Shown here piece after piece: positions 3,963 through 30,479 of a DNA stretch of 32,132 nt. A program made the translations under genes and the position numbers. How positions within the stretch are numbered: position 1 is the stretch's first letter; the number at the start of each line of letters is the position of its first letter. The notes below the pieces were generated by a model. It had not been told where the DNA came from and did not search any database. It saw nothing but the letters and a program-made list of their open reading frames with translations. Source of the stretch: an uncultured Bacillota bacterium (GTDB lineage Bacteria > Bacillota_I > Bacilli_A > RF39 > UBA660); the NCBI GenBank assembly GCA_947644695.1, contig CANSAJ010000010.1, positions 1 to 32,132 of the forward strand. Reading direction: 5' to 3'.

Positions 3963-4719
3963 ATGGAAAGAAAAGCGATGAGAAAACTTCTAGAATGGAA
4001 ACGAAAAAAAGATAAAAAACCCTTATTAATATATGGTGCAAGACAAGTGGGAAAAACCTACTTAGTATCAGAATGATATTACCAAATATGCAAATGGAGA
4101 AATATCTAATAAAATTCTTGCATCTTTTAAATCTATACCAATTCAATTAGCTAAGGAAAATAAAAAATTTCAATATAAATTAATACAAAAGGGTGGAACT
4201 AGTACTATATTTGGTGAATCAATTAACTGGCTAGAAAATGCAGGTATAGTAAATAAATGTTATAAGACAAAAATAGGAATTCCTTTAAAAATGTATGAAG
4301 AATTAGAATCATTTAAACTTTACATGGCAGACACAGGACTACTAACCAATTTATCAAATTTCCCTTTATATTTAATAAAAAATAAAGAAGCTAGTAACGA
4401 TTTAATGATAGGTATGTTAACTGAAAATTATGTTTCATCTTCTTTAAAATTTAATAATATTAATTTAAATTATTGGAAAAATGATTATACTTCAGAAATT
4501 GATTTTATTCTACAAAGTGAGAAGGGAAAAATAATACCAGTCGAAGTAAAAATAAGTGAAAACACAAAATCAAGAAGTCTTACAAACTATATGAATGAAT
4601 ATAATCCACCTTATGGAATAAGAATTTCATCTAAAAATTTTGGTTTCAACAATAATATTAAATCAGTACCTCTTTATGCAGTATTTTGTATAACAAAAGC
4701 AAATTTAGACGATTTATAA
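3963..4719 (+). pseudogene. AAA/DUF4143 ATPase, broken by an internal deletion
   Basis: Codons 1-37 from the ATG at 3963 encode a normal DUF4143-ATPase N terminus with Walker A GARQVGKT, then reach TGA at 4074. The next frame is open from about 4069 to 4719 and encodes the C-terminal half of the same family. Its tail (EIDFILQ, then PVEVKIS, and VPLYAVFCI) closely matches the intact protein at 26290-27600. By comparison with that 436-residue protein, about 180 residues are missing, including Walker B and the sensor region, and the frame is shifted at the junction. Reading UGA as Trp does not rescue it, because a TAA follows within about ten codons. A rescued 142-residue product from the ATG at 4291 is possible but would lack the ATPase domain. 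Confidence 0.88.
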
Positions 4720-17958: not shown

Positions 17959-18053
17959 ATTATAAAAATATTGCATTTTTGCGAGTATGTTTTTATAAGT
18001 TCTTAAATGTCGTTATAACTTTTATTTATAGGAGTTTATGATATTTTTATTTT

Positions 18054-18275
18054 TTGAAGATGTTCACATATATTTTTATAATTTTTTACATTTTAGCTTT
18101 CAAAAGTAGTAAAAAAGTAATAAATTTTCAGCAATTGTTTTGCATAATCATTTTAAATATTAAAAAAATACTATGTGATGTCATAGTATTGAAATATATT
18201 TCTATGAGCGAGACTAGTGGAATAGCCACTAAAGTTTTCGCCATAATAGGGGATAATATTACCCTTATTATGTAG
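18054..18275 (+). pseudogene. Possible ACT-domain gene remnant in a non-coding stretch
   Basis: The interval 17959-18371 has no convincing gene. One frame ends with VLKYISMSETSGIATKVFAI (then IGDNITLIM and a stop), which resembles the ACT repeat of aspartate kinases (the G-M-x-E-T-P-G-I-A-x-K-V-F pattern). The upstream part of the frame is AT-rich noise without a ribosome binding site, so at most a short relic remains. The same bases contain three stem-loops: AATACTATG/CATAGTATT (18167-18190), TAGTGG/CCACTA enclosed by GCGA/TCGC, and ATAATAGGG/CCCTTATTAT. A structured RNA is the alternative reading. Bases 18276-18371 show nothing I can name. Confidence 0.3.
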
Positions 18276-18371
18276 CATGAAGCATGTAGCAAAAAATTAT
18301 TCTTTAAATATTAAATCATGCTTTATATTTGGTATAAAAAATGCGTTTTTATAATTATTATATTTAACTTT

Positions 18372-19179
18372 TTATTTCAATTGGGCACTTTCATTCTTCA
18401 AATAGAAATTACAAGTAGTATAATTTCTATCTAATGGTTCCTCTGAATGAATAGGTTGCTTATATATATTACTAAGTCCTTCAAAATCGAATGAAATACT
18501 TTCTATATTAGAAATATCTTCTTTACCAATAATTGAATATGCTGGAACATATCCGCTATTAAGAGCAACTGGGTTTGTTGAATCATATAAAATCAAAGTG
18601 CCATCTTTCATTTGAAATATATTAAATGCATGTTCTTCTTCTGTTCCTTCAGAACTTAGTTTACCAAATACTAAATAACTTTTTATTCCACAAAACTCTG
18701 CTATATTTTGTACTGCGGCACTTCTCTCTGAACATAGTGCAGAATTATTTTTATAGAAATCTGCTATTGATATTTGAGAATCATCTCTTTCTTGCAAGTA
18801 AACATTTACTCTAATAGCTTGATTTCCTTTAAAACCAAATGCTTCAATCGTAAAATCTTGTAATTCATGAAAAAATTGTAAAGGATTATTTAAATTTTTA
18901 CCTTTAATAGATTTTATAAATTCTACATAAAGTGTTGCATCATTCATATAAAAAGGATCAACTATATAAGATGTAATAATGGGGCTATCTGAATTAATAT
19001 ACCCTTCTGAAATTGTTCCTATCAAACGGCCATTGTTGTTTTTATCTATGGTTCTCTTTTCAGAATTTTTTTTCCAATTCTTCTAATCTAGACATTACAA
19101 ATTCTTTAATTTGTTCTTCATTTTCTAAAGAGTTAACATAGGCTATTATATCTCTAAAAGAGTTTAAATTTTGGCTCAT
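18372..19179 (-). pseudogene. Transglutaminase-like protein, frame interrupted at an A8 run
   Basis: The only well-supported start is the ATG at 19179 (MSQNLNSFRDIIAYVNSLEN) behind TTGGAGG. That frame stops at 19060-19062, just after eight consecutive A residues (19066-19073 on the minus strand). If one A is skipped the frame continues without a stop to 18372, giving about 269 residues. The downstream 217-residue frame carries a transglutaminase-like Cys-His-Asp triad, numbered within it: CSERSAA (Cys98), EEHAFNI (His132) and LYDSTNP (Asp148). It has no signal peptide. The known fold includes cysteine proteases and peptidoglycan- or peptide-acting enzymes; the substrate here is unknown. It is a one-base frameshift mutation, a sequencing error, or a slippage-dependent gene. 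A TTG start at 19025 lacks a ribosome binding site. Confidence 0.75.
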
Positions 19180-19696
19180 ATTTATGCCTCCAATCATTTA
19201 TTCTAAAGATATTTTACCATATTTCTTATCTTATTTAAAGTAATGTGTATCTATTTTTTTAATTCATTTTAAGTATTAAACTTCTGTAACATATTTCTAA
19301 AGTAGTAAATTAGTAGTAAAATGCTATTAATAATTTTTGTATATAACTATAATTATAGACTTTTATAGTGAAATTGCTTTTTTTTTAATTAAAAAATTCA
19401 ACTAAAATTATTTAAAAAGAGAGAATTTACTTTCTCTCTAATATGCTTCATTATATCAAATGTAACTTATTTGTTAAATTTTTCGAAACTTCTTGACTCT
19501 AACATTATATAACAATATTAGAGATTGCACGAAAAATAATTTATTAAAAATTTTAGATAATTATTTGTTATTATTTCTTGAAGAAATAAGGAAGAGAATC
19601 TAAATTGTTAATTTATTTGGAAAAATCAAATGATAAAGATATAATCAATTGGAATAACTTTAATGCCCATATAGCTGCTAGAGTTTTTATTTATGC
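19180..19696. other. Long intergenic stretch with gene relics
   Basis: No intact gene is present. The stretch holds an imperfect 10-bp inverted repeat (19497-19506 with 19514-19523) and a short plus-strand frame at about 19593-19721 that ends in NWNNFNAHIAARVFIYAKK. That frame reads like the tail of a decayed gene but I cannot place it. A minus-strand terminator sits at 19414-19439. Confidence 0.5.
19414..19439 (-). terminator. Minus-strand terminator
   Basis: On the minus strand AGAGAGAA and TTCTCTCT form an 8-bp stem with a 6-nt loop followed by a U tract. No intact gene lies just upstream, so it may be left from a lost minus-strand gene. Confidence 0.6.
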
Positions 19697-26289: not shown

Positions 26290-27600
26290 ATGAAAAGAAA
26301 AATATATGAGAATCTTATAGAATGGAAAAATAATAAAGATAAAATGCCTGCAATTGTGTTAGGAGTCAGGCAATGTGGAAAAACTTATATAATAGAAAAA
26401 TTTTGTGAACAAGAATTTAAATCATTTGTTGAAATAAATTTATTAGAACGAAAAGATATAGTAAATCTTTATAAGTCAAATAAACCATCTAGTGAAAAAT
26501 TTAAAGAATTAAAGTTAAATTTAGGAATTGATTTAGAAAAAGAAGGAACAATATTATTCATAGATGAAATACAAGAATGTGAAGAACTTATTCAAGAATT
26601 AAAATATTTTTGTGAAAAACAGAATAGTAGTAGAATTATATGTGCAGGATCTCTATTAGGTGTAAAATTAGGTAGAATGAAAAGTTCACTTCCAGTTGGA
26701 AAAGTAAAATTATTTAATATGTACCCTATGGATTTTGAAGAATTTATGTGGGCAACTAATAATAAAATGCTTCTTGATGAAATAAGAAATTGTTATAATG
26801 CATTATCACCTATAGGCTCATCTCTTCATGAAAAAGCTATATCTTTGTATCGATCATTCCAAGTAATCGGAGGAATGCCTAAAAATATATCTAACTTTAT
26901 AGAAAATAATCAAGATTATATTAAAATGGATAATAGTATACTAGAAGATATAAAAAATGAATATTATGATGATTTTAAAAAACAAATAGACAATAAAAAT
27001 GATTCATTAAAAATAGAAGAAACTTATAAATCAGTACCTTCACAGTTAAGTAATGAATCTAATAAATTTCAATATTCCAAAATAAAAAAAGGCGGAAGAG
27101 GGTCAGAATATCAAAATTCAATTTCATGGTTAAAAAGTGCTAATTTAATAAATATCTCATATAAAGTATCTTTGCCTGAAATACCATTAGAAGGATTTAA
27201 AGATGTAAATGTATTTAAATTATTTATAAGTGATATAGGAATATTAAATAATATGCTAGGAATAAAACCGTTCGATATTTTAAATGACAATTTATCATTA
27301 TATAAAGGAGCAATAACAGAAAATTATGTAGCTAATGAATTTATATCAAATGGGTATAAACTTTATTATTGGGAAAGTAAAGGAACGGCAGAAGTTGATT
27401 TTTTATTATATACAGCTAATGGAATTATTCCAGTTGAGGTAAAAGCTAGTGATAATACAAAATCAAAAAGTTTAAAACTTTACATAGAAAAATATAATCC
27501 AAAATATGGTATAAGAATAAGTACTAAGAATTTTGGATTTGACAAAGAAACAAAAATAAAAATTATTCCATTATATGCAGTATTCTGTATAAATGATTAA
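26290..27600 (+). CDS. AAA+ ATPase with DUF4143 (PD-(D/E)XK-like) C terminus
   Basis: A 436-residue P-loop ATPase of the prokaryotic AAA_14/DUF4143 family. Walker A is GVRQCGKT (25-32), Walker B is LFIDEIQ (Asp92, Glu93), and ICAGSLLGV near 117-125 is the sensor-1 segment. A winged-helix-like region spans about 245-300. The C-terminal domain shows EVDFLL (Glu368, Asp370) and PVEVKA (Glu383, Lys385), the spacing of a PD-(D/E)XK nuclease-like core with its residues intact. The family is common in gut bacteria and archaea and its function is not established. It has its own regulated-looking promoter. The broken gene at 3963-4719 is its close relative. A self-regulating defence or mobile module is a hypothesis only. 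Confidence 0.9.
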   Translation: MKRKIYENLIEWKNNKDKMPAIVLGVRQCGKTYIIEKFCEQEFKSFVEINLLERKDIVNLYKSNKPSSEKFKELKLNLGIDLEKEGTILFIDEIQECEELIQELKYFCEKQNSSRIICAGSLLGVKLGRMKSSLPVGKVKLFNMYPMDFEEFMWATNNKMLLDEIRNCYNALSPIGSSLHEKAISLYRSFQVIGGMPKNISNFIENNQDYIKMDNSILEDIKNEYYDDFKKQIDNKNDSLKIEETYKSVPSQLSNESNKFQYSKIKKGGRGSEYQNSISWLKSANLINISYKVSLPEIPLEGFKDVNVFKLFISDIGILNNMLGIKPFDILNDNLSLYKGAITENYVANEFISNGYKLYYWESKGTAEVDFLLYTANGIIPVEVKASDNTKSKSLKLYIEKYNPKYGIRISTKNFGFDKETKIKIIPLYAVFCIND

Positions 27601-29279: not shown

Positions 29280-30479
29280 ATGATAGAAAGAAAAGAATAT
29301 CTTGATGAATTAAAAAGATGGAAAGATAAGGATTTAATTAAAGTTGTTACAGGTATAAGAAGATGCGGAAAATCAACTTTATTTGATCTCTTCATTAATT
29401 ATTTAAAAGAAAATAATATAAAAGAAGATCAAATAATAAAAATAAATCTAGAAGATATAGATTACGATTTTGAAAATTATAAAGAATTATATAATTATAT
29501 AGTAAAAAAAATTGACAAAAATAAAAAATATTATATATTTCTAGATGAAATTCAAAATATTAAGGATTTTCAAAAAGCTGTAGACAGTTTATACATAAAG
29601 AAAAATGTTGACGTATACATAACAGGTTCAAATGCATTTCTTTTATCTGGAGAACTAGCAACGTTATTATCAGGTAGATATATAGAAATAAAAATGTTGC
29701 CTTTATCTTTTAAAGAATATATAACCGCTTTTGAAGACAATAACTATCATAAACTATTTCAAGATTATATGAAAGTTGGCGGAATGCCAGGAAATATAAA
29801 TATATTAAAAACAAATCCTAATGATGTAGATAAATATTTAGATGGTATATTTTCAACAGTAGTATATAAAGATATAATGTTAAAAAATAACATAAATGAT
29901 AAAATGTTATTAGAAAGTATATTAAAATTTATTTTTGATAGTGTTGGTAGTCCTATATCGATAAAAAAAATTAGTGATACATTAACTAGTAAAGGTACTT
30001 CTACAAGTAATCATACAGTAGAAAATTATATAAGAGCTTTTTTAGAAAGCTTCTTAATCTATAAAGCAGAAAGATTTGACATTAAAGGTAAAAAACTATT
30101 ATCTAGAGATTATAAATTTTATGCAGTAGATCAAGGGCTAAGAAGCTATTTACTAGGTAAAAAAGCAAATAGTGATATGGGCCACATATTAGAAAATATT
30201 GTATATTTAGAATTACTTAGAAGAGGATATAAAGTTTATGTCGGTAAATCAGATGAATTAGAAATAGATTTTATAGCTGAAAATAGAGAAGGCTTAAAAT
30301 ACTATCAAGTAGCTTTGACAGTTAGAGATGAATCTGTTTTATCAAGAGAATTAAAGTCACTTCAAAAATCTGGAGATCATTATCCTAAATATTTACTAAC
30401 ACTAGACTTTGATTTAGAAACAGATTATGATGGAATAACAAAAATAAATGTAATAGATTGGCTATTAAAAGACGAATAA
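29280..30479 (+). CDS. AAA+ ATPase with DUF4143, second subfamily
   Basis: A 399-residue AAA_14/DUF4143 protein, only distantly related to the one at 26290. Walker A is GIRRCGKST (25-33), Walker B is YIFLDEIQ (Asp89, Glu90), and VYITGSNAFLL is sensor 1. A winged-helix-like segment follows (PISIKKISDTL, near 230). In the C-terminal domain EIDFIA is conserved, but the usual EVK triad reads YYQVALTV, with Gln in place of Glu, so nuclease-like chemistry is doubtful in this subfamily. The ATG has a TGGAGG site. It is a single-gene unit with a strong promoter, an upstream inverted repeat and a terminator. Function unknown. Confidence 0.9.
   Translation: MIERKEYLDELKRWKDKDLIKVVTGIRRCGKSTLFDLFINYLKENNIKEDQIIKINLEDIDYDFENYKELYNYIVKKIDKNKKYYIFLDEIQNIKDFQKAVDSLYIKKNVDVYITGSNAFLLSGELATLLSGRYIEIKMLPLSFKEYITAFEDNNYHKLFQDYMKVGGMPGNINILKTNPNDVDKYLDGIFSTVVYKDIMLKNNINDKMLLESILKFIFDSVGSPISIKKISDTLTSKGTSTSNHTVENYIRAFLESFLIYKAERFDIKGKKLLSRDYKFYAVDQGLRSYLLGKKANSDMGHILENIVYLELLRRGYKVYVGKSDELEIDFIAENREGLKYYQVALTVRDESVLSRELKSLQKSGDHYPKYLLTLDFDLETDYDGITKINVIDWLLKDE

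Follow-up and report, generated by a model that had tools for sequence, protein, structure and literature searches.

The transglutaminase-like gene in the window (the whole stretch of DNA analysed here, 32,132 nucleotides from an uncultured Bacillota bacterium) appears to be the only gene carried by a non-autonomous integrative mini-element mobilised in trans, and a real gain of one base appears to have broken its frame, a recent loss of function; we assign this reading a probability of about 0.75. It draws on the architecture of the element, its distribution, the pattern at its junctions, the empty site of a sister copy, ends and an origin in common with an element encoding Rep and integrase, and the intact relatives of the gene. 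A preliminary description of this DNA, which the analysis supports in part, had noted the split gene and contained nothing of its status as mobile-element cargo.

Reading of the open frames on the reverse strand bore out that the start preceded by a GGAGG site lies out of frame with the catalytic domain. The ATG at 19179 opens a first frame of 39 residues that stops at 19060, and the catalytic frame, which begins at the end of the eight-A run, stays open for 231 residues from 19067 to 18372; joining the two takes the loss of one A or the gain of two. Runs of eight As are not unusual here, with 15 matches in the window vs a mean of 46.9 in shuffled sequences, and a frameshift in such a place is in itself nothing exceptional. 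Two forms of recoding were considered and rejected. If the TGA were read through, the first frame would still end at a TAA six codons later, so that stop recoding cannot join the halves, and programmed −1 frameshifting at A-AAA-AAA leads into the wrong frame, +1 or −2 being needed.

Table 1. Features of the mini-element and its cargo gene in the window.
Feature	Position	Strand	Remarks
Whole non-autonomous mini-element, ~1.4 kb	about 17964..19386	-	T-run/A-run junctions, L015 homology, flank homology; left end +/- 15 bases
Left integrase arm-site pair TTTACTACTAATTTACTACTTT	19299..19320	-	
Ribosome binding site GGAGG	19187..19191	-	same in L015 and L016
Cargo gene, first frame: start and N-terminal part, 39 residues, stop	19060..19179	-	
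Eight-A run, site of frame change	19066..19073	-	
Cargo gene, second frame: transglutaminase-like catalytic domain with Cys, His, Asp	18372..19067	-	
Origin segment: iteron-like repeats, origin hairpin, second hairpin (model R1)	18207..18292	-	102.5 bits
Rfam RF03070 'ssNA-helicase' match, hairpin loop with TAATATTAC, read as rolling-circle origin	18242..18291	+	
Right integrase arm-site pair, degenerate (TTTATTACTTTTTTACTACTTT)	18103..18124	-	
Right end of element	17964..18102	-	resembles right ends of other copies

A scan of genome contigs identified five loci with close relatives of the gene (L014 to L018), whose best segments are 91, 93, 82, 78 and 74% identical to it. Each of the five has its start region and catalytic domain in a single open frame, confirming the one-base frameshift that the preliminary description had proposed; L014 begins at a contig edge, with its first residues and start outside the contig, and over the 28 N-terminal residues where it matches the window identity is 100%. 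That description had suggested comparing the run in related strains, and it was found to consist of seven As (L016 and L018) or to be interrupted (four As, T and two As in L014 and L015; four As, G and two As in L017), never of eight. Relatives with a decayed catalytic domain, which would have told against its reading and indicated a loss of long standing, numbered none of the five. With open frames and seven As or an interrupted run in every relative, the base was presumably gained recently by the window copy. Pairwise dN/dS between the window copy and each relative was 0.09–0.21; judged from these sequences, the gene was under purifying selection before the break, and its frame was lost recently. 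Counting the changes found in just one of four sequences (window, L014, L015 and L016), we obtained 5 synonymous and 6 non-synonymous changes for the window (too few to date the break), 21 and 8 for L014, 7 and 3 for L015, and 36 and 38 for L016. The flanks of the gene differ from relative to relative, and no arm sites were detected near it in four of the five, as far as their contigs reach. The L014 product is 91% identical to that of the window, vs 73–74% for the host EF-G DNA in the genomes of L014, L017 and L018; the EF-G DNA of the window was without a match in the genomes of L015 and L016.

The affiliation of the protein was assessed by sequence and structure. The catalytic frame scored 13.9 bits against Pfam PF01841 (Transglut_core), below the gathering score of 23, and the intact L015 protein had no Pfam match at E<=0.001, no NCBIfam family and, among the sequences of solved structures, a match at chance level (E 0.41). 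The catalytic Cys, His and Asp, described earlier as preserved, occur in this order in all 16 aligned proteins, namely the window protein, the five close relatives and 10 distant homologues from genomes of the same family (a weak match, L010, and locus L024 were left out). The AlphaFold2 model of the L015 protein (mean pLDDT 64) yielded a structure list headed by transglutaminases, including factor XIII (Z 7.3, rmsd 4.9, 171 aligned), and matched TglA with Z 6.7, rmsd 5.1 and 160 aligned; these values lie below 8, under which matches were not taken as proof of fold, and Foldseek alone returned nothing at E<=0.001. The gene thus resembles the transglutaminase-like superfamily (PF01841) in the order of Cys, His and Asp and in its leading structural matches, and differs from it in falling below the Pfam cut-off and in having an N-terminal part of its own.

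The window and L015 share a block (17976–19337, 90.5% identical) with TTTACTAC pairs at both ends and hairpins downstream of the cargo gene, one of which matches Rfam RF03070; the right arm site and the left end of the window copy are degenerate. The host flank at 19379–19507 is 92% identical to G005:C28, and this match reaches as far as the left end of the element, where a T run and an A run are located and beyond which G005:C28 runs on differently. The matching part of G005:C28 (L110, 1501–1629) lies at the 3′ end of a transposase-like ORF, and the window cassette may thus have inserted next to what remains of an insertion sequence. The flank on the peptidase side was clearly matched in four congeners (G002, G006, G007 and G008) and by shorter pieces in others; both flanks together, as an empty site of the window copy, were found in no congener among the nine genomes of the genus, its own included. 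The genome of the window contains two further blocks, one with a GNAT gene (C5) and one with a small gene (C12) that we read as nucleoside-deoxyribosyltransferase-like from its sequence, no family being matched. Elsewhere in the window, two full-length ATPase-like genes (26290–27600 and 29280–30479) and a seemingly truncated third (4291–4719) have similar sequences.

The distribution of such blocks was then determined across the family. The double arm repeat with at most one mismatch was present in 10 of 98 genomes (reversed control, 1), and R1, a covariance model of the 86-base origin segment built from 13 copies, matched 85 places in 37 of 386 genomes. Of these places, 79 were read with their surroundings (L015 was left out, being taken as the same locus as the match in G155), and we defined a mini-element as an R1 match with an arm-site pair of at most four substitutions within 1.3 kb upstream and another within 0.2 kb downstream. 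This definition was satisfied by 49 places in 27 genomes; 8 of the 79 had a Rep-like motif directly past the origin, and 22 belonged to neither class, some of them at contig ends. The 49 mini-elements measure about 0.8–1.6 kb, with about 400–1200 bases of cargo, and in 44 of them one ORF fills at least half of the stretch from the left arm site to the origin. Their cargo falls into 30 clusters. Among 16 cargo proteins scanned with Pfam, 10 were matched at E<=0.001 (HD, GNAT, LOG/lysine decarboxylase, radical SAM, two Nudix, calcineurin-like phosphoesterase, Ppx/GppA, DUF5680 and DNA alkylation repair), and no integrase or Rep family was found in these 16. Tandem mini-elements were observed in L085 3094–6527 (G037:C14), with three arm-site pairs and two origins, and in L170 (G312:C3), where one element has the right end of its neighbour as left flank. 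Related small genes (MKIITDN...) adjoin arm-site pairs in L100 3014–3737 (G007:C55) and L094 (G018:C2), where the origin match is absent or very weak; a cassette without an R1-type origin may therefore exist.

Twelve clusters with at least two members comprise 31 elements, and their 19 other members were compared with the longest member of each cluster, allowing ATG, GTG and TTG starts. Clear breaks were seen in four of these 19 cargo genes. One is the window copy; another, LOG-like (G130:C50), has gained a G in a G run, in an element that is 96% identical apart from this; the other two are HD genes in a state of severe decay. The Nudix gene G116:C1 was a doubtful fifth case, and two further candidates, G116:C19 and G397:C20, were rejected as intact with a GTG start and a ribosome site. 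At this frequency, the window frameshift fits the decay of a stranded cassette. As for exchange between genomes, two elements from different genera, G018:C1 and G260:C1, share 991 bp at 99.8% identity, and their flanks are unrelated. The pair G000:C12 (L026) and G262:C15 (L165), 99.9% identical in two genera with unrelated left flanks, was not counted towards movement, since identity (100%) extends over 610 bases of the right flank; it represents either a larger transfer or a binning error.

Many left ends, among the matches listed, start near AAAAAGTTTAGTTTTT and have CCTTTATTT in common, and many right ends, among the matches listed, share AAATAAAGG and finish near CTTTTT. The arm repeat TTTACTAC appears to resemble DR-2 of Tn916. 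The pattern T4-N5-7-A4 was present at the left end of 44 of 49 mini-elements vs 0 of 47 control windows, and at the right end of 39 of 49 vs 2 of 46. Tn1549 targets TTTT-n6-AAAA, and the ends of its circle are joined by 5–7 nt (PMC5871717); the junctions of the mini-elements show insertion at such sites, as in elements of the Tn916/Tn1549 type. An empty site was found for a sister copy, the GNAT element G000:C5, which sits between jag-like and mnmE-like genes (identities taken from sequence). In five of eight congeners, pieces of these two genes lie 31–96 bp apart on one contig; in a sixth (G001), the region preceding mnmE starts 35 bp after jag, and in the remaining two the mnmE side alone was matched.

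The origin segment was aligned across 70 copies (66 distinct), in which 94.9% of the cells pair. Changes on both sides were observed in 16 of 28 pairs, vs 4.3 in shuffles (0 of 500 as high) and far above the slid versions; the fitting of this alignment to the model favours covariation, and such changes were seen in only 3 of 28 pairs when the 13 copies were aligned. The hairpin loop contains TAGTATTAC in 63 of 70 copies, TAATATTAC in 2 and other sequences in 5; we take the first two to be the nonanucleotide of CRESS-type origins. Two or more iteron-like GCTWCAT repeats lie beside the hairpin in 55 of 70 copies, so that a nonanucleotide in the hairpin loop and iterons alongside, the marks of a CRESS-type origin, are both present. 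Of 8 sources searched, 4 had an RF03070 match above the gathering score. The mini-elements have the same hairpin and downstream repeats as this Rfam family (ssNA-helicase RNA), which is filed as gene/sRNA, whereas the traits seen here are those of a DNA origin: the TAGTATTAC loop, the iterons and a rep gene adjacent to it in the helpers. RF03070 thus looks like a CRESS-type rolling-circle DNA origin, a function that we infer from sequence, and it may act as an RNA as well. The name 'ssNA-helicase' would suit the helicase domain of the neighbouring Rep.

A candidate helper was identified in L088 (G011:C4), which has the ends and origin of the mini-elements and in addition encodes Rep and an integrase. 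Its Rep belongs to Viral_Rep (PF02407), with 7lar ('ATP-dependent helicase Rep'), which we take to be a circovirus Rep, as the best solved chain (E 4.4e-11). Its integrase matched PF02920, the DNA binding domain of Tn916 integrase (E 4.4e-33), 1b69 (E 1.1e-26) and, at E of about 1e-134, chains 6emz and 6en0 ('Int protein'), presumably Tn1549 Int. The likely helper therefore carries a cognate integrase of the Tn1549/Tn916 type. Its right arm site lies inside the 3′ end of the int ORF, and by sequence the mini-elements look like L088-type elements minus the stretch from rep to int. Relatives of Rep (E<=1e-10) were detected in 11 of 386 genomes and relatives of Int (E<=1e-30) in 6 of 386. Mini-elements occur in 6 of the 11 Rep genomes vs 21 of 375 others (p 2.4e-5). 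At the same thresholds, the genome of the window (an assembly 94% complete) had neither a Rep nor an Int relative, and 21 of the 27 genomes carrying mini-elements had no Rep match; the link to the helper accordingly rests on the shared ends, the shared origin and this enrichment, which make L088 a likely helper. L208, L209 and L210 combine an R1 origin with a Rep that shares about 66% identity with the L088 protein, and no TTTACTAC pair was found near them; they are perhaps a second helper type with other ends.

The extra A could instead be a sequencing or assembly error, or the state of a minority strain, with the gene intact in the living cell. The window genome is a draft of 56 contigs, the gene is intact in all five relatives and purifying selection lasted until recently, all of which would suit an error. 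Eight other runs of eight As, however, sit inside open ORFs of the window (27 kept), including rpsL-like and ftsK-like genes (identities read from sequence), so that runs this long are generally read right, and the one-base gain in the LOG-like cassette gene is comparable, although possibly an error too. We regard an error as unlikely. An internal start from which only the catalytic frame is translated, yielding a shortened enzyme that works, agrees with the 231 open residues of that frame and the presence of all three catalytic residues, and is nevertheless very unlikely: by eye, no GGAGG-like site precedes the TTG at 19025 or the later ATG, and the N-terminal part is kept in all five relatives (in L014 minus the first residues) and partly in distant homologues.

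Two further explanations make use of the A run itself. The preliminary description had proposed that polymerase slippage rescues the gene; if transcripts on the eight As regained the frame in a useful share of the mRNA, full-length enzyme would still be made. The run does lie at the frame junction, and an 11-A run in Citrobacter tssM gives 20–25% frameshifting by slippage (PMC4256274). The direction is wrong, however, since −1 A or +2 A is required, whereas slippage on homopolymers mostly inserts one base, and PMC5574713, from which this is taken, reports that no transcription errors restoring a frame were detected. Eight As are also short, and the run is interrupted in three of five relatives, which argues against a kept slippery site; rescue by this route is highly improbable. 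A phase-variable switch, on at seven As and off at eight, would account for the seven As and open frame in two relatives, and is scarcely credible given the interruption in the other three and the 15 runs of eight As in the window. Of the earlier proposal that full-length product is or was recently made, the past part is supported, the gene having been intact until recently (five of five relatives; dN/dS 0.09–0.21), and the rescue of the present copy is not. We infer that the window gene has recently lost its function and yields a truncated or trace product at most.

A real one-base gain in a trans-mobilised cassette remains the preferred reading, and we propose the following course of events. 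A Tn1549-like integrase supplied by a helper would bind the TTTACTAC arm sites and the ends, excise the mini-element as a circle and later insert the circle at TTTT-n6-AAAA sites. The CRESS-type Rep of the same helper would nick the hairpin origin and copy the circle, and perhaps transfer it too. In the window copy, the gain of one base in the A run would have separated the start and N-terminal part from the catalytic frame, a loss that would have befallen an element with no helper detected in the same genome. More broadly, we consider it rather probable that gut Bacilli of this family share minimal cassettes, mostly of one gene, whose only unifying parts are Tn1549-type ends and a CRESS-type rolling-circle origin and which Rep/Int helpers move in trans, in an integron-like swapping of cargo without an integron, and that RF03070 is their DNA origin and not an RNA. 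If so, elements of 0.8–1.6 kb without mobility genes would explain part of the gene flow among these gut bacteria, carrying cargo of many kinds (HD, Nudix, GNAT, LOG, radical SAM, phosphoesterase and transglutaminase-like) across genera in a lineage with small genomes. They would indicate how small a hitchhiking element can be, and a curated RNA family would have to be reinterpreted; with two sites and two proteins, the system offers direct tests.

Among the matches listed in a search of titles and abstract openings, no mini-elements of such a layout were described. Integrative and mobilizable elements (IMEs) with a Viral_Rep (PF02407) relaxase are known (PMC5357655 and PMC5704250), as are integrated pCRESS plasmids (PMC6668415). 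L088 resembles these in combining a PF02407 Rep with a tyrosine integrase in the chromosome; the mini-elements differ from them in having neither rep nor int and consist of ends, origin and cargo only, thus lacking the integrase and relaxase of their own that mark an IME. They agree with the cis-mobilizable element (CIME), which PMC5704250 defines by both ends being kept and the integration and transfer genes lost, in that their attachment ends are kept and those genes are gone. Unlike CIMEs so described, they retain a putative replication origin and occur in many uniform copies of 0.8–1.6 kb with varied cargo. This uniform layout, the different cargo and the near-identical copies across genera suggest that they have apparently been propagated rather than only decayed. 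With the conjugative transposons Tn916 and Tn1549 they share the integrase type of the helper and the target TTTT-n6-AAAA (PMC5871717), and they differ from these in size, in having no conjugation genes and in carrying a CRESS-type origin. The mini-elements are therefore probably best placed as a class of single-cargo elements, probably trans-mobilised, and as a variant of known non-autonomous integrative elements.
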